This document shows positions 664 to 60,345 of a stretch of 64,000 nt of DNA, piece by piece. Below the pieces are notes generated by a model, which saw nothing but the letters and a program-made list of their open reading frames with translations, ran no database searches and had not been told where the DNA came from. This DNA is from Halichondria panicea. Lineage: Eukaryota; Porifera; Demospongiae; Suberitida; Halichondriidae. The stretch is taken from NCBI RefSeq assembly GCF_963675165.1, contig NC_087391.1, positions 3,243,001-3,307,000 on the forward strand, written 5' to 3'. Each line of letters opens with the position of its first letter. Within the stretch, counting starts at the first letter, position 1. A program made the translations under genes and the position numbers.

Positions 664-1420
664 ATGATTAACATTTATATAATGATAATGTCTGCTTGCG
701 AGTGCAGGCCGAGTGTCAGAGAGAAAGTCCTAAAGGTGTTCGGAAGACAATACAACCCCAACCCTAGAAAGGTGATTGCAAAAGGTGATTGCATCGTGGT
801 CTGCTCACAGCGAGGACAACTGCAGTATTGGTGGGAGGCCAAGCAACTTTATGCAACTGGCAGGCCAGCAAAAGGCTGTCATGCATCCAGTACGTCCACA
901 CGATCGCTCCTCTCACCTTCTGTCACCAAGCAACAGTAATCGAATTTTCGAATGCCCTCTTTGTTTACACAATGTATAGATAAGCCGTAGTCTGGTCTGC
1001 GCAGGTTGTTTGTGCGAGCGCTTAAGAGTATCTCAAAGCCGCACTTCACCACCATACACTCTCCGTCTGAGATCACTCTGAGAAACATGGAGGTCACATG
1101 CAGTATGTGTGTCATCTCAAGGCTCAGCTTTAAGCTCACCTCTCAATGCATTGAGCATACCGGCACCACTTGAGGAGAAGCTGAAATCCAAGCTGATTAA
1201 GCGTAGCATGCACAACTCCCACACTCTAGAAGACACTGTAGAAGTGAAGACAGGAGGGAGGACAGGTGAGAACAATATTATTATTGTTAATATACCATTA
1301 TATAATTTCACAGCCTCGAACCTTGGAGAGTGGCCAGTGCGAGTGCCAGTCAAACCACAGTTCTGAGTTGCTGACGATACGAAAGGGTGGTGAGGAGGAC
1401 GACTAGAAGCTTATCGAGCA
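664..1420 (+). pseudogene. RAG1 N-terminal-like fragment (left arm)
   Basis: The translation gives VREKVLKVFGRQYNPNPRKV, matching in register the VFG and VYNPKKVIATW strings of the longer gene at 45127-48331. It then gives FECPLCLHNV (RING-like start), SLVCAGCLCERLRVSQSR near 990-1040, and finally LIKRSMHNSHTLEDTVEVKTGGR ending at a GT donor near 1265. The next exon (about 1310-1411) contains SSELLTIRK, matching SSELQDIRK of the longer gene. The end of this exon is the last recognisable part; no catalytic core follows. Frames are broken, including an exact 13-bp duplication at about 770-796 absent from the right arm. I call it a truncated pseudogene of a RAG1-like element. Confidence 0.7.
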
Positions 1421-2736
1421 GGTGAAATTCTCGGTGACAGAAATTCAATCAGTCAATCGGTCCTTAATTAAAAAAACAAAATACAGAATAAATACACATT
1501 TTTCTTTAAAAATACATATCTCATGAACAATGTATTGTAATCACTTGCAACTAATCACTTGCAACTATTTCCTACAGGTGGTAGCCCAGATCCTGGGGGT
1601 ACCATGACATCATCATCGTTACCTAGCAACTGACCACCCCCACTAATTAACGATTTTTTTACACATTTCACAAATGAAGGCATGAAGTAACTAAAGACAC
1701 TAACTTAGTGTCCTCAATGTTCTCACCGTAACATGGTTCAATCAGGATCAGCAGAAACTTCTCTGCGAGGTCTGATACATGACAGAGAAAGTAAGTACAA
1801 ACTGATAACAAGACATGAAAGCGGAGTCTTTGTCTTTTTATTTCTTCGAAGCTATACAAGCTAGCTAGAGAGTCCTAGAATGCCTTCATCTAACTAACTC
1901 GTCTTCTCCAGAAATCTTTTACTATGCTTTATGAGTATACGGAGGAAATCAATAATTGAACTTCTTCAATTATTCATGACATTGAGTACAAGGCGAGTAT
2001 CGAACAGACCCTGATGCCAGAGCAGACATCAGAGTCAGACATCAGAGTGAGGACCCCCAAGGCAGAAACGCATTTTTTGACACAAGGGTCCCACCCCTCA
2101 AGTCGCTTTTTCAGAAAATAGAGAGAAAAAAAGAGAATACGGAGAAAGGATTAAATGAAATTGAGCATGGCTCGTTCACACCTCTAGTTTTCTCGGACCT
2201 AGCCACGAAAATAAACGAAAGCTACAGCAGGTGGTAGGCTGGATGAGATTGGATGAGATTGGATGAGACTGGCAAGACCAGCCATACGTTGTGTTCGTTC
2301 CACCCGCAGAAGAGACATTCGCCAGTCTCCAATGGACCTGATCCAAGCACGGTTCGAGACTATACATGTATATACCCAAAGTCTCAAAAATGTGACAGGG
2401 CCTAGGAAAACAACGAGCAAACTAATTAATTGTATTTTATTGCTTAATTAAATAAAGCCACTCACTTTGCACCTTCCTACCCCAAAATATTTTCGGGTGG
2501 AAAGGGGGACAGTATTGACATACCGTTATGCATACCGTTAATGCATACAAGAACAGAAGAACAGCATGAAAAAATTCAATGGCTGCCTTGTAACGGCTAT
2601 GCAAAAAAATTTTCGGATAAAAAATGCTCATTTTACTTCGTAGTCATTTTGTACTGATTGTTTTCCTGTCACAAAATTAATGTTTAGAATACGTACATCT
2701 TTATTTGTCCTTCCATATTGTCGGATTCTTAATTAA

Positions 2737-3428
2737 CAGTGAAGTGAAATGTCGGTTTCCAGAGCAATAAAATGCCTAGCAACCTATACCAATAGAATGT
2801 GCAACATGTGTTGCCATAACAACCACGGTTATTACGCTCACCCGTTTTTATCATTTTAAATGCTCGGCCCGCTGGCCGAGATAAAATCCAAACAATTTTT
2901 TTATGTTATGTTATCATATGGCTTGACTAAGCTTGATTTTCACATCATAGATAATACGTACATGTATTACTATATCGGTGAACGATCTATGAAATTTACA
3001 AGCTCACATAAAGACTGCTATACTATACTTATACTTACACTACTGATATTCTAGCTATACTATACTTAGCTATACTATACTACTTGCCAGAGTCACACAC
3101 TCCTGGTCTTTCACCGTCCTGGTCAGCATCTAGGCCCATGTCATGCATGACAGTTCATCAGCGTCTGGCATAAAGCTGGTACCCTTTGGGAGGTATCCTA
3201 CTATCCCCTCTCCTTCATAGGCACTGTCATCACCAGGCTGTCCTCAAGCACATCGGCCACATCGGCACAAGTAAACAATCTAGCCATAGCTCGTGCGGTA
3301 AGATGATTCTACAGCTCTTCCTCTATACAGGGATGTGCGTAGTTCGAGCTACTTCCTAAGTATCGCACAATTAGAATTTCGCAAAAAAAGTCACTATTGC
3401 GGGCCACGATCGTGGCCCGTGACGGGTG
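2737..3428 (+). mobile_element. piggyBac-type MITE (left arm)
   Basis: Bracketed by TTAA at 2733-2736 and 3429-3432, the target site used by piggyBac elements. The left end begins CAGTGAAGTGAAATGTC. The right end contains the palindrome GGGCCACGATCGTGGCCC before GTGACGGGTG. Both ends match the autonomous element at 4671-8838 (subterminal CCAGAGCAATAAAATGCCTA and TCTATGAAATTTACAAGCTC). An internal part around 3100-3240 is a remnant of an acidic N-terminal exon read on the minus strand. Confidence 0.8.
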
Positions 3429-3879
3429 TTAAAAAAAAATTATTCATGACGTTTGAGCGAACATATCTCCGGATAGAAAATAGCTAGGAGGTCGATCTTG
3501 GTAAGAACAATTCACTTTATCGATTCAACAATAAAAATAAACTCAGGTATATGCTGCAGATGATGTTAAGTTAAGTACAGTTCCAGTGTAAGTACAGTTC
3601 CAGTGTCATATCGCACAAGATAATTGGCACTAATAATCGGCACTATTGCTATTGGCGAAGCATTGAAGATGTTTTATGAAGAAAGGACACAGTCTCTGCA
3701 GAGTCAGCTAGGTTGCTTACTTCACAAACGGGGTGTTGAATTATTGTTGCTGTAGAAAGACTAACAACACCATTCTTGGGACTGCGTACTTATACGACAT
3801 CAATACTACAAATCACATTTTGGTTTCATTGTAAGTTACCATAATAATGTTATAGGTTACATGCACAGCGGCCAAACAT

Positions 3880-4650
3880 GAGGCTAGACTATGATTATTG
3901 CTAAAATATGCCAAAAGTTCAAAGTCTATAAAATTTATTGCAGCATTTTTCATACTTTTGCAGTTCTCTCCTCGCTAGCGCATTATAAGATTCCTGTTGA
4001 GCACAATCTGGATGTTGGGCCAGCAGAGACAAACTCTAATTCGCAACTCCTGCTTTCAGACGAATTTATTTTGCATGAGGTAAGCATTATGACGAAATGT
4101 AATTGTAGTATAATAATAATTATTATACAACTTTTAGGTACAACGTGGACTACTAGGGGATTATTGCGATGGGACCTACTACAAATCACACCCACACCCA
4201 CTTTTCACACCCACTTTTCATGAACAATCCGGAAGCACTCCAGCTAATCATCTACTACGATGATGTAGAGGTTTGCAATCCACTTGGGTCTAAATCTACG
4301 AAACATAAGCTAGGTATTGTAATTACTTGACACCCAAACGAACCACACAGCATTTTCTTGGGCAACGTGCAACCAAGGTATCGTTCTACTGAGAAAAGTA
4401 TTCAGTTGCTGGCAAGTCATCTGTACTAGTTAAATACGGGGCAATTATGGATGAGATAAAGAAACTAGAGGTAAGTTTACTATAAATTATGATGCCTTCA
4501 TTGCTCACTGGAGTAACCCTAAACATCAATGGCAGCTCTCCATTACTTTAGTTCCTGGAGATAATTTAGCCAGTCAGTACCTTGGAGAATGTAGACATTG
4601 CATGGCAGTCAATGAAGACATGCAGACAACCTTGTTTTGTTTTTAATGTT
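3880..4650 (+). pseudogene. Unrecognised transposon-associated gene fragment, YYDDVEVCNPLGS type (left arm)
   Basis: Several exons can be read. The first has FHTFAVLSSLAHYKIPVEHN and ends HEV at a GTAAGC donor near 4080. The second (acceptor TTTTAG near 4137) gives RGLLGDYCDGTYYKSH, then NPEALQLIIYYDDVEVCNPL and GSKSTKHKLG. A third gives FLGNVQPRYRSTEKSIQLLA, then KYGAIMDEIKKLE before a GTAAGT donor near 4472. The last piece reads CRHCMAVNEDMQTT. An in-frame 14-bp duplication (ACACCCACTTTTC) occurs near 4193. I remember similar strings from uncharacterised invertebrate transposon-associated proteins but cannot name the family. The reading ends next to the arm boundary and the piggyBac insertion. 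Confidence 0.55.
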
Positions 4651-4959
4651 GGTTTGCAATCACAGTTTAACCCTAATTGACAGTGAAGTTAAATGTCTGT
4701 AAATTCTCTATCGGGTTTCCAGAGCAATAAAATGCCTAGCAGCCCATACAACACAAAATTGTGTTGCCATAACAACCACGGTTATTACGCTCACCATTTA
4801 AATGCTCGGCCAGCGGAAATCCAAAAAATTTTTTTTATGGATCAGCCATGGTATAACCGATTATACGCCATGACGTAACGTTGCGGGGACACCCCCACAG
4901 CCATATTAATTTTCAAAAAATGCACAAAATTTATTAGTCCGTAGAAAACAGTGCGTAAC

Positions 4960-5110
4960 TCGAAAGCGCTTCGACTTTTGATAGTACAAGTTAGGCTAGA
5001 AAGATATACTAGTCAAAGATCTACAAGATGATGCCTAAATCGCTTACTATCTCGAAGGATTGGCTGTGATCTGCTTCTGTCAAGCGGTAAGTAGTAGTTG
5101 CGTATAATAC
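4960..5110 (+). repeat. Dispersed repeat related to 26513-26630
   Basis: Shares CAAAGATGATGCC, CTATCTCGAAGG, TTGGCTGTGATCTG and GCGGTAAGTAGTAGTT in the same order with 26513-26630. The copies differ by small insertions. Function unknown. Confidence 0.6.
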
Positions 5111-5794
5111 TGCTTTGTTACATGGCTCTTTAGATTCGCTAGAAGCTTTATACAGTCTAATACTCATTGTAGTAAGTATATAGGACGTAGCTGTAGAGTT
5201 TGTAGTGCTGAGAAGCGTTTTTAGCCTTTTTTTTGTGCAAGTACACTAGGTACTAGGTGTGGCTGATCACCAGATGCAGCCTCGTGTAGTCCTAAAGAAC
5301 AAAGAACAGTGGCAATGACAGGAAGGTGAGCCAAGCTATACTAAGCTTCCCAAGTTTATATGTTAACTCTACTGAATGTTTAGAGGCCCTGTATCATTCA
5401 TTATACTTTGATTATGTAAAAAGAGCCTATAAAGTACGCATAATTATAGCCATTGATAGTTGTGTACAGTACTTTGCTAGGAGTGTTTTTAGATTCATTA
5501 GAAGTTATAACTTACTGTATATGGTAGATATTAGTTGGATCTAGAATTTATAATGATGAGAAGGCTTTATTAATTCTCTGTGTACGTGTATGTAACACTA
5601 CTATAATTATAATTATGTACAGCCGGCCATGTGTGACAGTGAACAAAGGCAGCGGCAGCACAAGGTGAGCCTGTATGTTGACGTGACTCTACTGAGCCTA
5701 GCCAATAATTATGTCACCTATTACGTACTTAGATCAGTTTTTACCCTAGCAACATAGTGATAGCAAATAAATATGGGTACACAAGTAAGTACGA

Positions 5795-8007
5795 CTACTG
5801 TTCTCTGTTCTTATGCCATAGGAAAAAGCAGTCTTTCGTTGGGTTGCCATTATGGCAGAGCCACACTCCACATTCTTGGCAAAACCATGTCGTGTCAGTT
5901 CGGTGTCCGTTGTGATCACAGTGCGCACATCTTCCTCTCCTATGTATCGACGGACACGGACCACTCGAATCTTTTACGGGGAAGTGTTGGAGTTGGAGAG
6001 GAACAATCGCACCACCATAACGACCTGCCCGACGCCGACTGCAGTATGATCCGATGAGATTCTGGGCCAATTGAAGGCGGAACTCCTTGATGTTCTTCAA
6101 TTTCGGGTTAGTGTTTTCTTTATATAAAATATAACCATTGGTAATGGCTACATCAAACAAAAAGAAAAAAATGTACTTATAAAACTTTCTGCTCTTTGTT
6201 CGGCAGCTGTAGTAGCCCCTGAGCTGGTCACCCCTGTCAACTCCACCCATGTGCTGGTTGTACGACATAATGGCCTCTGGGCATGGCACATTAATTCTGA
6301 CTCCATCCTTTTGTCGCCGGAGAACGGAACCTATAGCTGTGGGCTGTGTTGTCGTGGAGAGGACGTTCACGATCCTGTTATCCTTCCAGGCGGTTGCTGT
6401 CACGGGGCCCTTCTGGACTGTCTTACTGGTACCTCTGTGTAAAGGTAACGTAGCATTATTAGTGGTTGTGTGAGAGTGCATGTTGCATGGGTGTGTGTGT
6501 GTGGGTGTGTGTGTGTGTATGAGTGTTGCGTGGGTGTGGGTGTGTGTATGAGGGTGTGAGTGTGTGTCTGAGTGTTGCGTGGGTGTGTGTGTTGCGTGGG
6601 TGTGTGTGTGTATGGGTGTGTGTGTGTATGAGTGTTGCGTGGGTGAGTGTGTGTAATTATTTTGTACCTCTGTTTTAGGGAATTTTTTAGGGCAGCTTTC
6701 TTCAATGCAGGAGGAAAACCTTTCCTGTCTCTGCGAGCAGTCCCACAACCATAGATTCCGTCCTCCAACAAATCCTCGAGCAGTTTGACGTTGGTGAAGA
6801 AGTTGTCAAAGTAGACGTGGTGGTTCTTCCTCTTCAACTCGCTTGTCAATTTCTTCACCACGTGTTCCCCGAGGCCGACATGACGTATTTCCTGCTTCCC
6901 CGTATACACATCGAAACGACTGAAGTACCCATTGGTACTATCTCCCAGTACCCACACTTTGATCCCACGCTTGATCGGCTTCATAGGCATATACTGCTTG
7001 AGAGCGGACCGACCCTGAAATTTGATCATTGCTTCATCCACAGCAAGATTCTTGGATGGATTATACAAGGCTGAGAATTGCAAGCTGAAATGATCAATCA
7101 CAGGGCGGACCTTACCCAGCCGATCAAACGTGGGACTTCCTCTCGGAGCAAGATGTTGGTTGTTGACAAAGTGCAGGTACCGAGAGATTTCCCTGAAGCG
7201 CCACCGAGGAATCCTTGTCGTGATGGGGGCGTAGTGTGTAAGAGGGTTAGTCGTCCAGAGATGGTAAGTGGACAATCCCCATAAGAATACAAAAACCCCA
7301 ATACGCTTCCAATTCTTCAGTGTCAATCTTCTTCCATTTATCGTACTTGTCATCTCCCTAACCTCCCTGGCGTATCTATTGCTCTCAGCCACTATTTTCT
7401 CCTGTAGTTCTTCGTTGACGAAGAGGTGAAAAATGTGTAGCGGGCAATCAGAGATCTCTACAGTGGGACCGGTCAGGGATGTGAAGGCGTTTACTGTGAC
7501 AGTCGTCAGATTCTCAGACCATTGGGTAACATTTGCACCTGTTTTTATTTAAAAAATAATAATTTGTTATGAGCCTCTTCTGATGTTATTTTACCTGGAG
7601 GGGGTGGTGGCGGTGGCGGTGGCGGTGGCTGGTGGGGTGGTTGAGAGGGGGGTTGGTGGGGTGGTTGAGAGGGTGGCTGGTGGGGTGGTTGAGAGGGGGG
7701 TTGGTGGGGTGGTTGAGAGGGTGGCTGGTGGGGTGGTTGAGAGGGGGGTTGGTGGGGTGGTTGAGAGGGGGGTTGGGGTGGTGGGTCTAGGCCTGAGTCA
7801 CTCGTATCATCTAAATAATAAGAACAGTGTTCATAATAGTTCTATGATTGTATCAATTATGTATTTACCATATTCGTCGTCGTCCGACTCAAGGTCGGAA
7901 AATTCATAGTCGCTACCTTCCTGCATAGGTTCTTCTGGGTCCTCCTCATCATCGGACAAGATATCCCCAAGTACCTCCTCCACAGTGAAGTGCTGTCTCT
8001 TGGTCAT
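5795..8007 (-). CDS. piggyBac transposase, four exons, apparently intact
   Basis: DDE-type cut-and-paste transposase. My exon model is 8007-7869, 7810-7595, 7538-6668 and 6434-5795, all with GT-AG borders and compatible phases. It sums to exactly 622 codons including the stop, about the usual piggyBac length. Exon 1 is acidic (MTKRQHFTVEEVLGDIL, then SDDEEDPEEP). Exon 2 is a PPSQPPHQ repeat. Exon 3 begins the core with NKWQ-like lead-in, NLAVDEAMIKFQGRS (first catalytic Asp), WVLGDSTNGYFSRFDVYTG and HHVYFDNFFTNVKLLEDLL (second Asp). Exon 4 has NQHMGGVDRGDQLRGYY and a C-terminal cysteine-rich finger (RGRCAHC, WFCQECGVWLC). I saw no stop or frameshift. The intron at 6435-6667 is mostly a TG/CA repeat; read through, it gives a spurious HTHTHTP protein. 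It may be a young active transposon or a domesticated gene; the TTAA ends favour a young element. Confidence 0.88.
6435..6667 (-). repeat. TG/CA microsatellite inside an intron of the piggyBac gene
   Basis: A purine-pyrimidine repeat of GTGTGTGT, TGGGTGTG and TATGAGTG units occupies most of the intron between transposase exons 3 and 4. The donor is AG|GTACAA (reverse strand at 6668) and the acceptor TTACACAG (at 6435). It keeps a frame open without stops by chance. Confidence 0.85.
7600..7790 (-). repeat. Short tandem repeat coding for PPSQPPHQ
   Basis: About six units of roughly 24 bases (GGTGGTTGAGAGGG type on the plus strand) encode the proline/glutamine/histidine-rich linker of the piggyBac transposase exon 2. 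The length is a multiple of three and keeps the frame. Confidence 0.8.
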
Positions 8008-15900: not shown

Positions 15901-16368
15901 CACAATATTCTATTCGTCTCAATATTCGTCTCACAAGAAAGTTTACTTAAATTATCCTCTCATTGTCCTCTTCCACATCATTAATAATTATCTCAGTAAA
16001 ACTTCAGTTATGCACGTCACGGTTCAGTCTTAACAGTCTCAGCTATGGGGGACAATGATAATACACATGCAGCTATTTCATACTGTGTTGCTAATAGCAA
16101 ATAATAGCATGCTATTTCTTATAGGCGCTATTATTTATTTGCTATTTTATATTGTGTCTTTAATATAGGCGCTAATTACATAACATAATGCTGCCTATAC
16201 AGCTGTTTGCATAGACCTTGCAAAATACTAAACCATTCACTACATTACCACAAAACCACCATATTGTAGCTATGCAAACAAATAGTATTACATGTACATG
16301 TAAATTCAAAAAAGAGAATTTAAAGATGTCATAGAACCAAGGCATATGGTGAGGACCTAAAGTGGAGA

Positions 16369-17288
16369 ATGGTCTACCAACGCCTTATGCTGGGACTTTC
16401 ATACCAGCAGATAGCTACTAATCTATGTGTAGACACGTCCACTGTATGGAGAGCAGTGAAGAAGTTTCAGGCTGAAGGAACTGTAAATACAAAGTACTGC
16501 AAAGGACCTCAAACACTGACAGAGTCACAAAAGTTTGTCATTTTACAGATTGTTTTGGAGAAACCTGCTGCTTATCTACGCGAAATATGTTCAGAGTTGT
16601 TGGTCAAGACCGGTAGTACAGTGAGCAAGTCAGCCATCTGCAGGTTCCTTAAGCGCAACAATTTTTCAAGGAAAAAGTTGCACATGGTTGCCAAACAGCA
16701 AAATGAACATCTTACCGGAAATGATGGTGTTTGTAGATGAAACAGGAAATGATGCTAGAGATTCGATGAGGAAATTTGGGTATGCCTTGCAAGGACAACG
16801 TGCTACCTCAAGAAGGATGCTATGTAGAGGGAAAAGGGTAAATTCTGTGGCAGCAATGGATATGAATGGAGTTATTTGTGTTGATAGTATTACAGGAAGT
16901 GTAAATGGTGACGTGTTTTGTGACTTGTTTTGTGACTTTGTGGAGCGATCTCTAATACCTCAACTACTCCCATTCAATGGTAGAAATCCTAGAAGCATTG
17001 TATTTCTTGACAACGCATCCATCCAACGCATCCATCCATCATGTTTCCCGTGCAGTTAGTCTAATTCAGAGTGTTGGTGCGCTAGTACATTTTCTACCCC
17101 CTTATTCACCCGATCTAAATCCCATTGAAGAATTATTTTCCAAGATTAAAGCTGTTTTGAAAGAAAGTGATGAAGCTATTGGACGGATTGGAGCGGCATG
17201 TGCCACTGACATTGTACAAGCAGCATTCTCTTTAGTGACAGCCGATGACTGCTTTGGGTGGTTCAATCATGCAGGATATGTTGGTTGA
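16369..17288 (+). pseudogene. IS630/Tc1-mariner-type DDE transposase, frame-broken
   Basis: The N-terminal helix-turn-helix region reads LGLSYQQIATNLCVDTSTVW and VSKSAICRFLKRNNFSRKKL. The catalytic core reads MMVFVDETGNDARDSMRKFG (first Asp), RSIVFLDNASI (second Asp) and FLPPYSPDLNPIEELFSKIK (Glu), the canonical DDE_3 arrangement. It is broken twice: a frame change near 16700-16720, and an exact 13-bp duplication (CAACGCATCCATC at 17011-17036) in the DNASIHH segment that shifts the frame. A 12-bp in-frame duplication gives FCDLFCDF. Removing one 13-bp copy restores the reading through the Glu motif. It shares an element with the SHOCT-like gene. Confidence 0.85.
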
Positions 17289-23289: not shown

Positions 23290-24030
23290 TAAGCTTCTAG
23301 TCGTCCTCCTCACCACCCTTTCGTACCGTCAGCAACTCAGAACTGTGGTTTGACTGGCACTCGCACTGGCCACTCTCCAAGGTTCGAGGCTGTGAAATTA
23401 TAATTATAATGGTATATTAACAATAATAATATTGTTCTCACCTGTCCTCCCTCCTGTCTTCACTTCTACAGTGTCTTCTAGGGTGTGGGAGTTGTGCATG
23501 CTACGCTTAATCAGCTTGGATTTCAGCTTCTCCTCAAGTGGTGCCGGTATGCTCAATGCATTGAGAGGTGAGCTTAAAGCTGAGCCTTGAGATGACACAC
23601 ATACTGCATGTGACCTCCATGTTTCTCAGAGTGATCTCAGACGGAGAGTGTATGGTGGTGAAGTGCGGCTTTGAGATACTCTTAAGCGCTCGCACAAACA
23701 ACCTGCGCAGACCAGACTACGGCTTATCTATACATTGTGTAAACAAAGAGGGCATTCGAAAATTCGATTACTGTTGCTTGGTGACAGAAGGTGAGAGGAG
23801 CGATCGTGTGGACGTACTGGATGCATGACAGCCTTTTGCTGGCCTGCCAGGTGCATAAAGTTGCTTGGCCTCCCACCAATACTGCAGTTGTCCTCGCTGT
23901 GAGCAGACCACGATGCAATCACCTTTCTAGGGTTGGGGTTGTATTGTCTTCCGAACACCTTTAGGACTTTCTCTCTGACACTCGGCCTGCACTCGCAAGC
24001 AGACATTATCATTATATAAATGTTAATCAT
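23290..24030 (-). pseudogene. RAG1 N-terminal-like fragment (right arm)
   Basis: Inverted duplicate of 664-1420. It keeps a longer open frame than the left copy because it lacks the 13-bp duplication: VFGRQYNPNPRKVIASWSA then HSEDNCSIGGRPSN, followed by FECPLCLHNV before a stop. The downstream exon with the TVEVKTGGR motif ends at a GT donor near 23438. As in the left arm, the catalytic region is missing. The motif order (VFG, PRKVIASW, C-x2-C finger, GGR) follows the RAG1 N-terminal region and the nonamer-binding GGR element. Confidence 0.7.
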
Positions 24031-26989: not shown

Positions 26990-28740
26990 AACATACCGCC
27001 GGCCAGGACCATCCGGTCTTACAAAACAAAGGGATTTAAAGTTGAAGTATTCATCTATGACCAAAAGATAAGAACGAGTTTGGGCCGTTCCGTTAGTGGT
27101 TCTAATCGTTGCCACGCGTACTAAATTGTCTTTTCCTGGGTGAACTTCGATTACGCGGGATATTAGAGAATCTTCATGGATTACAACTTAATCACCAGGT
27201 TGAATGTTTCGAGTGGGGTGCCGTTAAAGCGTCCAAGTTGGGAGATGTACATCGCGTGTCTGAGTAGAGACTTGCACAGCTGCCAACGCGGAGGTGCATC
27301 CTGTGGTCTAGGAGAGCTGTCAGTGGCTTCCCAATGAGGAAATGACCAGCTTCAATTCGAGTGGAATGAGAGGTCGACTATTGAGGCAAGCTTTTTAGAA
27401 TTCGTCTCAATTAGATTTGACTGCAGATGCCTGAGGTTCGTGCTGGGGAATGAACTTCCAGAGATAGTGACTGACATTTTCTTGACTGGATTGCATTTGT
27501 AGGAATTGGTAGAGATCTTTGAGTTCTCGAGCATCTCCAACAAAGTTTGTGCCGTTATCACTCCAAATGAGCGAGGGCGTCGAGAGATGCGTTTCAGACA
27601 CCCAATAAATGCGTCTGAGGTGAGGTCCACTGTTAGAGAAACTGTTAAAGAAACAAACACACAGATGTAGGCTTCGACTACTGTGGGTTTACAAACGTGT
27701 CCATACTTGATCATCAAAGGACCAGCGCCAAAGACTGAGCCAGGTGTGATCCTTTCGATAGGGAATTGTCCAAGCATCTGAGGTTTGGGTCTTGCTGTGT
27801 ACCTGCGGCAAATAATGCATTTCCTAGCAACTGATCTGACTACCTTGATCTGACTACCTTACGTCCACCAACAATGTGATAACGTCTGGATAACGTCTGG
27901 ATAGGGGTAGAGTAGGACCTGCATGTAGGTGTTCATGTTGGAGAATGTTTTTCATGTAAAATGGACTGATAATTGGAGGTTTGACCTACTCTGAGAATAT
28001 TGTTGCAGAGTGAACTGGAGTTGGAGAGAGTTTGTTGTGAATCTGCAAAGTGAGTTGCTTGAATAACCTTAATCCAGTAATTTTCTGCTGCTTCCAATTC
28101 AGTGGTTGTGAGATGAGTCTTGATCTGTTCTGCTATAATTGTTATTCTTGGTTTGAGAATTTCGATTGAAACGAAGGGTCCAACGTTCCATAGGGTGAGG
28201 TCTTGAGTGAGTACAAGTAGTGAGACTTCTTTTTCATCAATTTCAGGTTTGTTTGGAGGGAGAGGTAGTCTATTAGATGGTGGTTCTTTAAGCCCATTCC
28301 ACCAGAAAGAGTGGTCAAGGGGGTAGAGTCCTCTTGAGGCTAACATGACAAATGAGGGATGAGATCGACCGGATTCTTGTAGCGCCAATTTAGTACAATT
28401 GTGCTGTCGGTCCATGCAGGCAGTACTTGTCTGATATTATGATGGATTAGTCGAGCCAGTAGTTGAGCTCCACAGAGCTCTAGGCGAGGGATAGTTAGCC
28501 GCTGCTCTTAGACATCACCAAAGCAATGTGGATACGATTAGAGGTGCTGCATAAGCAGAGTACCATGGATTTCTGTTGAGAAGGGTTTGGGGGGAATGGG
28601 TATCTGTGAGAGTAGACATTGTAGCCAGGCATCATGGACATGTTCAGGCACTGTCATCCCAGCCTCCTGCAAATTGCGTATATCAACTACTTTCGTATGA
28701 GCATGATCAAGAAGATAATGCTATTCGATATGCAAGTGGA
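26990..28740 (-). pseudogene. BEL/Pao retrotransposon pol remnant 1 (RNase H to integrase)
   Basis: Read on the minus strand: RLTIPRLELCGAQLLARL and AWTDSTIVLNW (RNase H-like, about 28510-28390), ASRGLYPLDHSFWWNGLKEP, then integrase strings VVEAYICVFV and LIWSDNGTNFVGDARELKDL (DNGTNF active-site region), and DSLISRVIEVHPGKDNLVRV with VATIRT near 27190-27090, the small domain after the Pao integrase (DUF5641-like). Frames change several times and a TGA/TAA stop lies near 27195, so it is inactive. Upstream reverse transcriptase is missing; 28550-28740 has weak coding strings only. No LTRs identified. Confidence 0.75.
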
Positions 28741-31439: not shown

Positions 31440-33434
31440 ACTCTGTCTTAGGGCAGCGATGAACGATTCTGCAGTGAGATCCGAAATCAATTCCAAATGA
31501 ACGGCCATGGACACAAACACACCGACATAAGCCTTGATGACGGTTGGCTTTCGAATAGGACCGTACTTAATTAGGACCGTACTTAATATATAGGGGGCTC
31601 AGGTAACACGTTCCATTGGTAATTGACCCATTTTTTGGGGCTGTGGTCTGATGGAACCTCTAAGGCAAGTGATGCACTGTCTCAACACAGATCTCACTGT
31701 TTTTCGACCTGTGACAACGTTGGCTGACCTGCATGAAACAAACGAAGATGCTCCGTACAAATAATCACTCTAGTCAGAGAATGATTTCCATGCAATATAA
31801 TTGGATGAAGGTTTGTATAGGAATTTCCTATGCGTCCGACTCCAAAATTATCCAAGAAGGGATTCAGTTGCACAAGGATACTACGTCGGGAAATGTCAGA
31901 TCCAATCTTGAGACTGTTAATTTCTTACGGGAAGCAAGCACATTGAGATAAGCTAATCCAGTAATTCTCAGCTTTTACAAGTTAAAGTGTTCTGACCGGG
32001 ATTCAACTTACGACAATTGTTCAGAAAACGAATCACCCAAGCTGTGATGCGTTTAAAGCGAGTAAACAAAGAATATCGATTGATGTCGATCTACTGTCAA
32101 AACAGTCTTCAGGTAGTTTCCCGTACTGCACGCAAGAACGCAAGACTGCTCTGGCCATTGTGATGGATCGAGCGGAAGCCAACTTGGTCCACGCACGAGT
32201 TGAGAGGGGAGAATTCCCCTAGATGCACAATCCGCTGGATTGTCAGTACCACTTACATGACTCCACCTACTGGGTGGGATCTGATACTGGGTGGGATCTG
32301 ATCCATTATGAATGAAATTCGATTACCCACAAAGGTTTTTAGACGTCTTGGATTTCCATTCAACCAGCCGAGCACTATCGTGCTGTCCGTCCACGCGAAT
32401 ATGCTATCCATTGAAATAGAAAACAAGTCTCGAACGTGACGTAAGAGTTGGGATGGCTCCAAACGTGGAATCTTAATGGGTGCCACCTTAGTCTTAGCAA
32501 TGACCAGGGAGATATGCACCTTCAAAGCAGAATCGATCGATACACGACACCTGCATATGATGCATCACAAAATCCATGAATCTGAACAGATTGTATCTGA
32601 GCGTCGCTTGGAAAATAGCATCTACAAATTTGATTTCATCAGGGACCCAGTCCACTTTTCTTTCCCATAGCCGTTGCAATAGTTGTATGAGAGTGGGGGC
32701 AAACCATCCGAGAGCATCAAAGGTTTTTGCTATGTCTGACACGAGTGCTCTCTTCGTAATGCAATCGATGGATGGCAGACTAGCGACTGTTAGGTGAAAA
32801 TGATCTGATCGTACAAAACCCAACGTTTTCGTTTGTTGATCAGCATCATGTATGCTGTGCGTCTCCTGGCAATCCCTCAGTTCAGATGAGATGTGATCAA
32901 GAACTGAAGAGTCATTTGAGTTCCACTTGCGTAGGATAAATCCTCCACGTGAGAATAATTCTTGCAGCTGGCTCTGTAATTGGACAGCTTCTTCTCGACT
33001 ATTTGCTCCTGTTAATGCATCGTCCACGTAGAACGATTCTTCTACAGCCTTAACTGCCAAAGGGTATTTATGAGCATGGTCCAAGGACATATTAGCTGCG
33101 AACGAGGATGCAGACACGCCAAAAGTGAGCCTTGTCATACGGAAGTCTTTCAATAAGAAGATCTCCACACAAAACGATGGAAGTTCAGCATATAGCTCGA
33201 CGGCTCGATACATTAATTTTTACTAATGTCAAAAGTTAATGCAATGCGGTGAAACCGAAATCTGAGTAGTACATCTATTAGTTGCGGATGTATCGTAGGG
33301 CCCACTCCAACGCGTTCCACCGAAGCGCTTTGACTAAGCAGCCACCATGGTTGAAGTACCGGAGACAGAAGAGCAACGTCACAAAGAGCGACACTAAACC
33401 AGATGATGTTCCAACTAAATCCATGAATCAGCAA
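31440..33434 (-). pseudogene. BEL/Pao retrotransposon pol remnant 2 (reverse transcriptase to integrase)
   Basis: From 33434 downward: GPTIHPQLIDVLLRFRFHRI (reverse-transcriptase lead-in), MYRAVELYAEL after a frame break at about 33215, DFRMTRLTFGVSASSFAANM, the catalytic box ESFYVDDALTGANS (YVDD), GFILRKWNSN, KTLGFVRSDHFHL, then RNase H-like SLVIAKTKVAPIKIPRLEPS and FAWTDSTIVLGWLNGNPRRL with KTFVGNR. The integrase part (31720-31450) reads RQCITCLRG, KMGQLPMERVT, IKYGPIRKPTVIKAYVGVFV and LISDLTAESFIAALRQS. Stops, frame changes and a 16-bp duplication near 31560-31590 make it inactive. It follows the Pao order RT, A17-type protease region, RNase H, integrase. LTRs were not found. Confidence 0.82.
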
Positions 33435-44489: not shown

Positions 44490-44640
44490 CCAAAGCTACA
44501 TAACAAAAAGCAGCACATGATAAACAATTCGATCATGATTGTTGTTAAAAACAAACGATGCAAAAGTTCAAGTCTAAAATTAATGGCTGCATTAGCAGAG
44601 CTAGTGTGCAGAGCTAACTACTATGCACCGCTGTTTCACA
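44490..44640 (+). repeat. Dispersed repeat, inverted copy at 51170-51310
   Basis: ATGATTGTTGTTAAAAACAA, CGATGC and TTAATGGCTGCATTAGCAGAG appear in reverse complement at 51210-51290. Function unknown. Confidence 0.65.
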
Positions 44641-44689
44641 ACAATGAAAATTCACCACTTAGTTTATCAGGATGTAGTACATGATTATG

Positions 44690-45000
44690 ACATGATTATG
44701 ACAAGATGATACATTCCACCAAACCACAAACCAGTGGAAGTTGGGGGCTGTTTTAGAGCATCCCGTTGTGGAGGGGGGGTTCCTAAGTATGTGAAAAATG
44801 TGACTGTGTGGAAGTATAGAGCATATGCTTTCCCTAGATCCAGTTTGATAAAAATTGATCGATCCCAGCACAAGCTGTATTGGTTTGTACAAGTACATCA
44901 TTGTAGACGTCATGTGAGGTGTCTTTGGCAAAAAAGTACCACTGCCGGAGAATGTGTTTCGCAAGACTAGTAACCGTTACTATTTGAAAAAAGTGTAAGC
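44690..45000 (+). CDS. Unrecognised short open frame
   Basis: An open frame of about 80-90 codons reads PPNHKPVEVGGCFRASRCGG, GVPKYVKNVTVWKYRAYAFP and IDRSQHKLYWFVQVHHCRRH. The composition looks protein-like (aromatics, few rare residues), but I know no family. It may be a transposon exon; GT-AG context was not resolved. Confidence 0.3.
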
Positions 45001-45126
45001 TCTTAGGTACCTATTGATAGGCGACTTAAATGGGACAAAATTTTTGTAAGTGAGTTTTAACTATTTCAAAGCAACACTTTTTAACATGTATTTTCTTGTA
45101 CACAATCAGGAATCAAATAAATAAAA

Positions 45127-48100
45127 TCAGTTATCGTTCTTCTTTTGCCTCTTTACAGGTGGAGGTCTGCATGAAATGGTGGATGGTGCTATGTAAACAT
45201 AGTGCAGTTTCATCATACATCGGAGCCTCTCCACACCATTTGGAATGTTGCGATATGTAACTTTTAAATTGTTAAAATAGGCGTGGATCGCCTCAGCCCC
45301 TTGCTCTCCCATGAGTCCTATTCCCACCTGCCACTGGTCCAGCCAATCAACCACATGCTTCTCTAGCATGTGCATCTTTGGTATGACGGTTGCTTGAGGA
45401 AATTGCTCCCGATAAAATGTCATAAAGGTGGAGATGTGAGTACCTTTGGAGTAAATTTACATGGTACGTTGTCATTTTACACAATTTAAATTTACCTAGG
45501 GAAGCAATTTCCTCCTGTGTGATCATATTTGATTATATATATTGTGACACTTGCTTAGGGTGACACAAAACTTCCGCTGGATCTTCTCAGCACTCGTAAC
45601 TATGGACGGCTCATAACTGCTTCTCAATGTTCCTCACCTGTAGAGTGATATTCAAAGTAAGTTTGTTTATAGTTAATAACATACCTGGAGGGTCCGGTTT
45701 ACGTGATTTCCCACAAACGTGCCACCATAGTACGTTTGTCTCCGAACATTGAAGTCTGCATCTAGAGCCTTAACAAAAGGTCCGTCCTCTCTCTTGTACC
45801 CTTTTGCTGTTTTCTTGTTAATGATAGTCCACTCAGCATCCTAATCCATAATTATGTACATAACTCATCGTCTTAGTTTACGCGTGCGAAGCTTTCTCCT
45901 CAAATTCTGAGCGGAGTGCTGTGAGTCGAGGATCGTCTTCCTCCTCACCTCCTCACCTTCACCAAACACACAGAGCAAGGCCACCAGGTCATTGAGTTGA
46001 GCCACTTCTTCGTTTACCCTATACATTTATTTTATTGCTTTATGTGTTCCATGTAAATTTAATCACCTGTCTAGCTCATCCTTGAGGGCTCTCTCTCTCA
46101 CAGAGTCACTCACAGAGGTACTCATGAAGTTTGAGTATGAAGGGCCACCCCTCTCGCGACTATCTTCAAACCATGAGACTGCATTGTCAAGCACATGACT
46201 CCATCAATTGGAAGAGCCGGTAAAATATCCCTAAACTGATGTGCAGGGCAGGCAAACCTGCATTTCCATTTTGGAATAAGGTGGGTGTGAATTAACAATG
46301 TAGATCTTACTTGATTCAAAGGGATGCATTTGAAAAAAGGTTCCCAAACACAATTGTTGAAGCTTTTGACGTTCTTTAGGATCCCTCTGGTGGTCTGTGA
46401 CCATACTGGCAGTGCTTCTGCTTTGAACAGTAGTGGGCAGGTTCCTTAGCTGTTCTGATGTTGTCAAGCACCACAAGTGTCAAGCACCACAAGCAACAGT
46501 GCCAACCTATTCAGAATTTCACGTAAAGTAAGGTATGCGTATATAGTTATTCCTTTTACCTGAAGCACCTGACAGCCCATATATGTTACACAGGAACTCA
46601 CAATCCCCGCTAAGGAATACTTGGATTGTTACAATTATAAAACATTCAGTTTTTAATATTCTGCTTAGTACCTCCATGTCTTGCTCTGTAGGCTGTCCAC
46701 CTCATCTTCGAACCTCTGTAGTGCGATCTTCAGGTTGGTAACGTTGTCGGGAGCCTCAGATATTAACAGGGGAATTAGGATGCTTATCTCCACCCAACTT
46801 GACCCAGAACTTGACCCAGATCTCGTCAGCAGGTATCTTCCCTTCATGCCAAGTAAGCCGGTGCACTCTAAAAAGAATAAAATGTTTGCACAGTCTCTTA
46901 ATTGGTTAATTAAATTGTACCTTCTCTCATCGTCATCATTGGAATTAAGAATGTGTTGGATCTTCTCCCAGAGATGTGGTGTATAACACATGGGAACATT
47001 CTTAATTTTCACAGTGTGCCGGCCATGCTTGACTGGAAATGTGAAGGGAACAAGCTGACACTTAAGATTATCTATTCCTATGAGAGAGTTAGCTTCAGCC
47101 CGCATCTTCTTCTCAGACGCAGAAGGAAAAATTAAAAGAGGTAAGTCATATATACATACATAACATATTCACCTTTTTATGATCCGCAGCTTGTTCCTGG
47201 GAATCATGAGAACAGACTGGATACCTAAACTTCGGCTGACTGAAAACGTAACCTGGAAGCATCAACTTATCCCGATCTTCCTTCCCTGCAGTCTTGACCT
47301 CGTTGCTCACCTCCGCTCACTCTCTTCCTGATGTCCTGCAGCTCACTACTGCGCCGTCTCAGGGTGGGGTGGTTTGGCTTGCAGTGCCGCTGGACACGCT
47401 AGGTGAGCTGACTTGCATCAGCTTGAGAGGCTGCAAAAAATATATAATTATAATTATGTCATTATTGTTTTTATTCTCACCCGTCCCCCTGTCTTCACCT
47501 CCAGAATGCTGGAGTTGCGCATGCTGCGCTTGATGAGGACAGTTTTCAGTTTCTTCAAATGGGGACAAGGACAGTTCTTCAGGTCTGCTGAGGGCTGCTG
47601 GTTTGAAGTGTGTGCATGCACACTTGCTGTCATGGTGGGCCTTGTGGTGTTTTAAGCACCCGTGTTTCCTGCACACACTGCACGTGACTCTCAAAATGAG
47701 GAGGTTGTATTGAGGAGGTTGTATTGCTTCAAGATCATCAAGGTGTCCTGATTGGCAACAAGGGCATGATGTCGTCTGAGACTCTTGTAGACACTGGCAC
47801 AGACAATCTGCACAGACAAGACTACCGCACGTCTTGAGTTCGATAGGTTTGTGTACTATCTTTTTACAGATAGGACAGTCAAAACAACCTTGTGACGGTA
47901 GTACTGTGTCTTGTTCGCAGAAGGAGCTATCAGCTGGATGGCTGACTGAAATGAGCCTTTTGCCGGTCTGCCGTTGCCGGTCTGCCAGGTTTGTATTGCT
48001 TCTTCGGCCTTCCCACCAACACTTAATGCTCGTACACACGGGGCAATCATCTTCTGTGTGACCAGTCCACGTAGCAATCACCTTTTTGGGGTTGTACACA

Positions 48101-48331
48101 GTTTACCCTTCTTGTGTGTGTGTGATATATTATGTTGTTGCATGGGTGGCAGTATGTTTTAGGGTGCATTAAATCCGAGTCATTTGTTACATCTATTCCA
48201 AACACCTCCAGGAGGTCGTCGTGCCTGTCAGAGCAGACATATCTCCGACCTGAGGGACCTTTCTTGTTCTTAAAGAGAGATCCACAAACCCTGCAGTGCC
48301 TGCAAAGTGCCTCAAGATGTTCTTGACTCAT
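45127..48331 (-). pseudogene. RAG1-like multi-exon gene (RAG1 N-terminal region plus DDE-like core)
   Basis: About 11 exons by GT-AG borders: 48331-47481, 47430-47173, 47111-46921, 46867-46672, 46609-46560, 46506-46311, 46257-46067, 46018-45882, 45840-45685, 45637-45496, 45443-45127 (about 895 codons; vertebrate RAG1 is about 1040). N-terminus: CRVCGSLFKNKK, LLEVFGIDVTNDSDLMHP, YCHPCNN, VYNPKKVIATWTGHTEDDC (same order as in RAG1), RING-like CPICKKIV...LVCADCL, CPCCQ, then EVKTGGR|PLKL like the nonamer-binding GGRPR. Core: EIWVK..LGGDK, APDNVTNLKIALQRFEDEV, GDCEFLCNIYGLSGASG, WHCCLWC, LPALHISLGIFYRLFQL, RRQTYYGGTFVGNHVNRTL, PKMHMLEKHVVDWLDQW, GLMGEQGAEAIHAYFNNL. Breaks: frame change in a CA run near 48107, duplications near 47305, 46463 and 45943, and a deletion after GGDK. 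It could be a RAG1-like transposase or an N-RAG-TP/Chapaev-like one with a RAG1 N-terminus. RAG2-like gene and terminal repeats were not found. Confidence 0.72.
47490..48331 (-). other. RAG1-type zinc region in exon 1 of the RAG1-like gene
   Basis: The start ATG at 48331 gives MSQEHLEALCRHCRVCG; an acceptor-like TTCAG just upstream leaves room for an earlier exon. Cysteine pairs in order: CRVC, YCHPC, CPVC, then a RING-type set FDCPICKKIVHKPIELKTCG, LVCADCLCQCL, CPCC, followed by VTCSVC and KHHKAHHDSKCACTH (a C2H2-like finger). RAG1 has the same succession: central zinc-binding region, RING, then C2H2 finger. The exon ends TVLIKRSMRNSSILEVKTGG then R at a GTGAG donor (47481). Confidence 0.75.
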
Positions 48332-48419
48332 TCCTGAAGGTTGATGCAAATGAATTGTCTGTTTTTGTTCATTATATATCAATGTGCATGTGTAAATATC
48401 GTAAATTTGTGTCATGTTT

Positions 48420-49030
48420 CAGACCTATATTGTTGCTGCCAAAAAATTTTGTCCAATACCTGTTGTTGTCGAAACTGTAGTATGGAACTTCCTCTTTCAG
48501 TTGTTGCAAATTCCACTTCAAAGAAACACTCTGGTAAGTCAGTGAGTAGCTATCTTGTAGTTGATACCTTTAACAGGTGCAGTGTTGTTTCTAGCTGCGC
48601 TGTTGTTATGCGGGTGCACATGACACTCATAACTTTCATGTGACTTCAATGAATAACAAACAAGTTGCTATGGGTATAAGTTTGCACAAAACAGGATTGT
48701 TCAAAAACCACACCCACTTTTCAATATTTCGTTGAATTGCAGTCCGTTCTAATTACAAACTAAGTGGAGGTCTTCTGAAAAGGCTGCAATGGCATGGCAT
48801 TCAGCATTATTTTGCAAATCCACGAAAGTAAACTAAACTCTTACTTGCACTTGATTCATCCACTTGATTCATCCTTGAGCAGCCTACACACACACACACA
48901 CACTACCGTATACCTCGCTTGTACTTGTAGAGAGCTTTAGAAGCCTATGCTAGCATCATGAAACTCCCCTAGCTTGCGTATTGACTGAGACAAACAAGAA
49001 TTTGTACACCTTTATATAAAATCCCAACAA
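48420..49030. other. No gene recognised; repeat shared with 50890-51060
   Basis: 48838-48945 (TGCACTTGATTCATCC, CACACACACAC, ACTACCGTATACCTCGCTTG) is an inverted copy of 50895-50995. A CA microsatellite lies within it. Confidence 0.5.
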
Positions 49031-59078: not shown

Positions 59079-60345
59079 TCACAAGTAATAACTAGGTTTA
59101 TGTTGTGGGTCAATTAATTCTGGTAGAATATGATCAACCTCTTGCCAATGCTCATCAGGTGATATCCGTTCAACAACAACACCTTTTGAGGTATAAACAC
59201 AAAAGTCACACCACTGGGCAGTATATCGTGTAACATAGAGCTGTAGCTGGACTTGGTGGTAGTACGAGTGATTCCTTTTAAGAGATGGTATACCATTCAC
59301 AAGTTGTAAGTAAAACCTCTTCTCTTTACTCTTTACACATTTCCTCAATCGTTTTATCTGCCATACTGTAGGGACATTTGAATTCCGCAATACCAGTAGG
59401 AGTACAATCAATTGACAGATCAAAAACCCAAGCATCAGGGGACGCACCTAGCCAACATTTGTCACTATCAACAACAAACCCTGCTTTCTTTGTGTGTAAG
59501 CCTACATGGTCATTACTTCGCATGTATTTCTCATACTCAATGCGAGCGTTTTCCTCGTGATCTGTTCCCCACCGAATCGCTTTCGGAATGTGCACGAAGG
59601 GCTTGTAGTAAATCGTACACTGAAGAAGTGCTGGTGTCTTTTTTACTTGTTGAAGGATGCGTCCACATTTAGACCCGGTTATTCGGCTCTGTCTTTCGGC
59701 AATCCATAAAGTGCTCGAACTTTGATCTCTAGTTTTCATTTCCAAATCTTCCTGCTGTTTCTTACTAACAGAGAGCTTGTCTAAAATGTCTTCTGCGGTT
59801 ACTCTCTCAGTGACAAACACTTTTGGAACATCAGCAGAATCACAAAATTTGACACTATCATCACACAATCTCACAGAACCAGGCTTCAAACAGTACGTGT
59901 GGTCATTAGCAATTTTGTCAAACGATGGAACAAGTAAATTTAGAAGAGCACATGGTTTGTTGATGCATAGCAACTCGCAACTCACAACGAAGAGCTTCCA
60001 GTGCCAACTTATCAACTTCACGAGTGTGTTGTGGTTGTGGTCGTGGATCATAAACCATCGTGGATCATAAACCATTTGTGAACCCTTTCCACGCATCTTT
60101 GAAGGTAACAGCTCACGCCGACGATCATTTCGACAGGAATTGGATGCACTTTACTGCTGTAGTTGGTCTGTACAGGTTGGTCTGTACAGGTAAGACTTTC
60201 AGGTGCATCTTTAATTCTGAAAAAATCGGCCAGTGCATACGAGAGTGCCCCAATATGCTTACAGCTTCCACAAGGTCCACAACCAGCAGGACAACCACAC
60301 TCAGCACTCAAAATGTCATAGTTGTTCCTATTTAAGCTTATCTCG
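59079..60345 (-). pseudogene. SWIM zinc finger plus YqaJ-like nuclease of the ISL2EU element
   Basis: N-terminal SWIM-type motif SAECGCPAGCGPCGSCKHIG with ALSYALADFF (C-x-C...C-x-H). Then INKPCALLNLLVPSFDKIAN, a long frame with WIAERQSRITGSKCGRIL, KAIRWGTDHEENARIEYEKY, WLGASPDAWVFDL, and GIAEFKCPYSMADKTIEEM. Last, after a frame change, come YYHQVQLQLYVTRYTAQWCD and FCVYTSKGVVVERISPDEHW. G-x(n)-E, LGASPDA, EFKCPYS and HYYQVQxQL form the catalytic signature of YqaJ/lambda-exonuclease folds. A 17-bp duplication (CGTGGATCATAAACCAT, about 60043-60076), a 14-bp one near 60175-60190 and another break the frame. Confidence 0.8.

Follow-up and report, generated by a model that had tools for sequence, protein, structure and literature searches.

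The 64,000-nucleotide window analysed here (C15:3243001-3307000) comes from the 131-Mb, 39-contig genome of the sponge Halichondria panicea and carries, on its minus strand, the remains of a transposase gene reminiscent of RAG1, the enzyme that cuts and joins vertebrate antibody genes. When the exons of an intact sibling gene are mapped onto the window, 11 exons are found from position 48331 down to 45127 (Table 1). These are the ends given in an earlier note on this DNA, and the peptide strings quoted in it are found in the translated minus strand in the order it described. The first exon matches the Pfam profile RAG1_imp_bd (PF12560) with 4.2e-9, over the curated cut-off (window 48047-48418, minus strand), in agreement with the RAG1-like N-terminal zinc region proposed in that note.

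Table 1. Chapaev-related features of the window, numbered from its first letter.
Feature	Position	Strand	Remarks
Whole decayed Chapaev element	44626..48786	-	length 4161 bp; alignment partner is the sibling in L039 (4450 bp)
Intact repeat at the element end lying downstream of the gene, terminal inverted repeat CACCGCTGTTTCA	44626..44638	+	exact match; end shared by sibling copies
Ruined terminal repeat at the element end lying upstream of the gene, CAGCCTTTTCAGA replacing CACCGCTGTTTCA	48774..48786	-	exact limit uncertain
Exon 1: Chapa/RAG1-type zinc region (CRVCG, HPKTYCHPC), RING finger, C2H2-like finger, GGR at end	47481..48331	-	
Exon 2: PLKLM start (completes GGRP), helical pre-core region, DUF1280 match begins	47173..47430	-	
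Exon 3, acceptor site deleted	46921..47120	-	exon mapping
Exon 4: LGGDK, first catalytic Asp (sibling D496)	46672..46867	-	33 bp directly after deleted in window
Exon 5: GDCEF, second catalytic Asp (sibling D566, aligned with RAG1 D708)	46560..46629	-	acceptor deleted
Exon 6: HCCLWC, with the C(2)C zinc pair that falls on RAG1 C727/C730	46311..46506	-	
Exon 7: LHISLGIFYRLFQ	46067..46257	-	
Exon 8, donor site deleted	45880..46018	-	exon mapping
Exon 9	45685..45840	-	exon mapping
Exon 10	45496..45637	-	exon mapping
Exon 11: MHMLEKH, whose H(4)H pair falls on RAG1 H937/H942; GEQGAE with the catalytic Glu; stop codon	45127..45443	-	
Second Chapaev N-terminal fragment, more distant	23656..23934	-	C15:3266656-3266934, 44% identity
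Third Chapaev N-terminal fragment	779..1051	+	C15:3243779-3244051, 43% identity

The anatomy of the window copy is explained by the structure of the sibling, which lies in locus L039 (C4:4757001-4763500) as an intact element at 1234-5683. This 4.45-kb element is taken up by one transposase gene of 11 exons, whose ten introns are all GT-AG and whose spliced frame is open over 976 amino acids; the earlier note had suggested that intact copies with terminal repeats be looked for in the genome, and this is one. Depending on the alignment settings, the window copy shows 3975 or 3969 matches, 60 or 84 mismatches and 43 or 41 indels relative to the L039 element, its identity being 98.5% or 97.9% of aligned sites. 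Because its exons carry 20 frame-shifting indels (by mapping of the L039 exons), three splice sites are lost (the acceptor in exons 3 and 5, the donor in exon 8) and its upstream terminal repeat is ruined, the window copy is a relic, unable to encode a transposase and deprived of one end. The "about ten GT-AG introns" previously read in the window are thus right for the sibling; in the window itself, both splice sites are kept in 7 of the 10 introns, and some of the supposed joins, such as the step from HTHTRR to VYNPKKV within exon 1, are frame-shifts. In the second of these alignments to L039, the window copy has 84 substitutions, 29 deletions (of at most 33 bp, five being exactly 17 bp) and 12 insertions, eight of which are exact tandem duplications. 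Two partial copies show 7 substitutions versus 5 indels (L006, 1.96 kb) and 6 versus 5 (L011, 1.8 kb); indels in young copies are about half as frequent as substitutions, or more.

The sibling protein matches DUF1280 (PF06918) with 3e-15, over the cut-off, as well as RAG1_imp_bd (5.3e-11). Published work identifies DUF1280 with the Chapaev transposase and assigns it to a clade that includes RAG1 (PMC3985635); the hallmarks of Chapaev are target duplications of 3 to 4 bp and CAC/GTG ends (PMC4079192); C(2)C and H(3-4)H pairs are common to Chapaev, Transib and RAG1 (PMC12730594); and Chapa and RING are known in Chapaev subgroups, the founding members coming from lancelet and sea anemone (PMC4411706). 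Besides the window copy, nine elements were examined (those of L039-L046 and a copy at 2.58 Mb of C12, from two overlapping loci), the terminal repeats being CACCGCTGTTTCA for the main family, whereas those of a second family read CACAGGTGTTTC. Both ends could be located in seven, all with 5'-CAC...GTG-3' ends, and each of these seven is flanked by a perfect 4-bp target duplication (ATGT, ACAA, TCAT, GTTA, ATTA, GCTG, ATGG). The family therefore presents the Chapaev characters: DUF1280, CAC/GTG ends, 4-bp duplications and a DDE core with C(2)C and H(3-4)H, here H(4)H, between the second D and the E, preceded by the Chapa zinc region and RING also found in Chapaev transposons. Compared with the founding Chapaevs (PMC4411706), it is found in a sponge and its gene has ten introns. 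It is a new Chapaev member, with the complete RAG1 order in its intact copy, and not a RAG1 gene. We are thus confident that the element at 44626-48786 of the window is dead and belonged to the autonomous cut-and-paste DNA transposons, more precisely to the Chapaev superfamily (CACTA-Mirage-Chapaev group). The earlier reading of a RAG1-like or N-RAG-TP-type relic was correct as to a transposase relic with the RAG1 layout, and has to be amended as to its kind, which is Chapaev by DUF1280 and 4-bp duplications, neither a RAG1 gene nor an N-terminus on its own.

The family is dispersed in the genome. At an E-value of 0.001, at least 34 matches to the 247-amino-acid N-terminal frame and at least 38 to the C-terminal frame are found, these counts being lower bounds in which some matches are pieces of one copy. 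DUF1280 has 13 matches in the genome. The two halves lie together, on one strand and in the same order, at 15 places including the window, over spans of about 2-7 kb (counted by eye from two match tables). The identity of L041 to L043 reaches 99.7% across 3465 bases and 98.9% across another 964, and their target duplications differ; this comparison of sequences suggests recent jumps of the family. Two copies, L015 and L019 (C12:2.46 and 2.58 Mb), have a common left flank, so that this stretch was probably copied by segmental duplication rather than by transposition. In L041, a pair of 69-nucleotide, 94% identical inverted repeats containing CTAGTTGGGCGG (906-974 and 5989-6057) surrounds a second-family Chapaev element and is bordered by AACATCA on both outer sides; it is perhaps another transposon into which the Chapaev element jumped. 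Within the window, the two N-terminal fragments outside the element are more divergent than the main copy.

With the sibling protein as phmmer query, mouse RAG1 is matched at 8.4e-8 over RAG1 152-398, and a 14-sequence profile gives 8.1e-28 over RAG1 101-421, the core region giving no score against mouse RAG1 in that profile search. When a family profile (24 of 30 sequences kept) is compared with mouse RAG1 by hhalign, whose pairwise E-values are indicative only, the two are colinear over 517 columns (E 1.6e-21), and GGRP is paired with GGRPR, D566 with D708, and C585 and C588 with C727 and C730; H896/H901 fall on RAG1 H937/H942 in a second, weak local alignment (E 0.034). At the sequence level, the strength of the match stems from the N-terminus, as residues 1-255 alone give 2.3e-23 and the RAG1 N-terminal zinc region and RING are present in the family; the GGRP region alone is weak (E 0.05 against RAG1 380-1007, 0.15 against RAG1 380-470). 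In the comparisons with predicted structures of two relatives, one model has some rows that cover RAG1 from about 391 onwards (rmsd 7-11), and the other has none among the rows listed. For everything after the N-terminus (256-976), hhalign gives 0.005-0.009 (score 31.0-31.8, best shuffle 23.5), and for the C-terminus (780-976) 0.003-0.004 (score 28.2-28.9, best shuffle 17.6). The order from N- to C-terminus is the same as in vertebrate RAG1, namely zinc region, RING, C2H2-like finger, GGRP (in the sibling) and DDE core with inserted zinc pairs, and the D708-x18-C-x2-C and H-x4-H spacings are identical in the sibling family. Vertebrate RAG1 differs in that the sibling element has no RAG2 partner and makes 4-bp target duplications, the core sequence is too distant for a convincing sequence-only match, and its nonamer-binding domain (NBD), which follows GGRPR, has at most a candidate counterpart in the present family.

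Thirty relatives were found, among them proteins of Ephydatia muelleri, Hydra vulgaris, Branchiostoma and Lytechinus; we take the prefix Em to stand for Ephydatia and scpid for Sycon. In a tree of 28 core sequences without RAG1L, rooted at the midpoint only, the sibling groups with seven Ephydatia rows and one further protein (100/99 support) and is placed among other DUF1280 proteins. A search with HSP70 did not point to a sponge by name, but this grouping is what a sponge host would suggest. Of the two branches at the deepest split in the drawing, one includes P0013 with a zinc region and P0027 with a RING, and the other P0020 with both, all above the Pfam cut-offs. The earlier note took the residue matching RAG1 D708 to be the Ser of LHIS, with the second Asp possibly in GDCEF (GDYEF in the sibling). 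D566, in the latter motif, is kept in all 30 rows and aligned by hhalign on D708, whereas the LHIS column varies (S 9, D 7, L 5, T 2, M 1, 6 gaps) and its Ser is therefore not catalytic. D496 is kept in 28 of the 30 rows. E918 and E922 are present in all covering rows (25 and 26, respectively); by the alignment, either may be the equivalent of RAG1 E962. Of GGRP, it is mainly G-x-P that is kept (G298 and P300 each in 20 of 23 covered rows).

The intact sibling encodes one multi-exon transposase. Its N-terminal half, in which a RAG1-type zinc region precedes a RING and a C2H2-like finger, would probably serve for dimerisation and for protein or DNA contacts, and its C-terminal half, a putative DDE nuclease of the RAG1/Transib fold, would bind the 5'-CAC ends, excise the element and reinsert it at a target cut with a 4-bp stagger. 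This scheme is based on the gene structure, the termini, the target duplications and the conserved catalytic and zinc residues; the fold is predicted, for relatives only. DNA cleavage by the transposase could pass through hairpins, by analogy with RAG and Transib, and the RING may have ligase activity.

Several points weigh against the assignment to Chapaev with a RAG1-type core. Target duplications are unreadable for L040, for L045 and for the copy in the window, where at least one of the two ends is unrecognised. Two Hydra gene models, P0024 and P0028, have Ser in the D496 column. The core alone (470-976) is weakly linked to RAG1: the profile match to RAG1 that the earlier note proposed as a check is strong at the N-terminus, but hhalign gives the core an E of 0.004-0.007, with a score of 30.7-31.4 versus 29.1 for the best of 25 shuffles. 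A RAG1-type core fold is seen in predicted structures, yet these are of the relatives P0008 and P0013, which share 32% and 30% identity with the sibling. Finally, the filing in Chapaev depends on four kinds of evidence: DUF1280, termini, target duplications and motifs.

Among the other explanations, a RAG1-like (RAG1L) gene or a relic of a RAGL/TransibSU transposon outside Bilateria would account for the RAG1 N-terminal order and core fold being present together. We consider it very unlikely: the duplications are of 4 bp in all seven both-ended elements, not of the 5 bp typical of Transibs (PMC4411706), and the protein belongs to DUF1280 and is nested among such proteins in the core tree. Unlike RAGL/ProtoRAG (BbRAGL), the L039 element holds no second gene, and the RAG2-like neighbour envisaged in the earlier note, which would be convergent, is not found there; the Pfam profiles of the RAG1 core (PF12940) and RAG2 (PF03089) have no match in the genome, but none in control genomes either, so that this silence does not show absence. 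A Transib itself, such as HzTransib, has no N-terminal half and makes 5-bp duplications (PMC4411706), and this identity was rejected.

The conservation of the architecture over long distances could also be expected of a host gene domesticated from a Chapaev transposase for a cellular role, an idea we judge highly improbable for a copy with so many frame-shifts and lost splice sites, one of many that are dispersed. N-RAG-TP of Aplysia (Panchin and Moroz 2008, as cited in PMC8355894) resembles the present family in being mobile and in having a zinc region like that of the RAG1 N-terminus, and is described as consisting of the N-terminus only; here core exons follow within the same gene, and this identity was rejected. 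That an N-RAG-TP-like zinc element and an unrelated DDE element were falsely joined has hardly any probability left, since both halves are adjacent at the 15 places, lie inside one inverted-repeat pair and one spliced frame in the sibling, and match PF12560 and PF06918 over the cut-offs in single predicted proteins from other sources (P0004, P0008, P0009, P0013, P0020).

Apart from the Chapaev copies, the window seems rich in transposons. By eye, we take its frames at 5795-7548 (-) to be piggyBac-like, 16324-17059 (+) Tc1/IS630-like, 27352-28436 (-) retroelement integrase-like, 32494-33219 (-) BEL/Pao-like and 59326-60150 (-) of YqaJ type. It also contains 126 tandem duplications with units of 7-30 bp (127 for 7-60 bp; exact adjacent units, microsatellites excluded), versus 2-6 in ten controls of Markov-1 type. 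The units measure from 7 up to 17 bp, where the distribution breaks off: 20 are exactly 17 bp, and one each is 18, 22, 24 and 48. Twelve other loci (L039-L050, 69.7 kb) contain 47 and share this ceiling (17 bp in seven cases, 34 in one). Such duplications are numerous in old copies (15 in L046, 6 in L044) and in the window and scarce in young ones (none in L045, one in L041); above 7 bp, three HSP70 genes have none in their coding sequence. The pattern resembles the outcome of a mutational process strictly capped at 17 bp, although an assembly artefact may also account for it, and is possibly more unusual than the Chapaev finding itself.

The family bears on the assembly of RAG1, as the origin of its N-terminal half is disputed. 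Capture of N-RAG-TP by a Transib has been proposed, and is repeated in a 2021 review (PMC8355894); alternatively, N-terminal domains and core formed one protein from the outset, as they do in Chapaev (PMC4411706). One tentative possibility, to which we give somewhat less than even chances, is that Chapaev keeps the whole body plan of RAG1 (Chapa zinc, RING, C2H2-like finger, GGRP DNA-binding segment and DDE core) in non-bilaterians, both parts of RAG1 having been inherited jointly from a Chapaev-like ancestor predating the sponge split; Transib would then be a reduced offshoot, and N-RAG-TP a piece of Chapaev instead of the donor. As horizontal transfer of Chapaev is documented (PMC4079192), presence in sponges alone does not date the fusion. 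The ancestral joining is testable by experiment and with full-length proteins from the sponge Ephydatia, from Hydra and from the intact sibling. Moreover, as the family seems to have moved recently, the biochemistry of a transposase that resembles RAG1 and brings its own N-terminal RING could be studied without RAG2.
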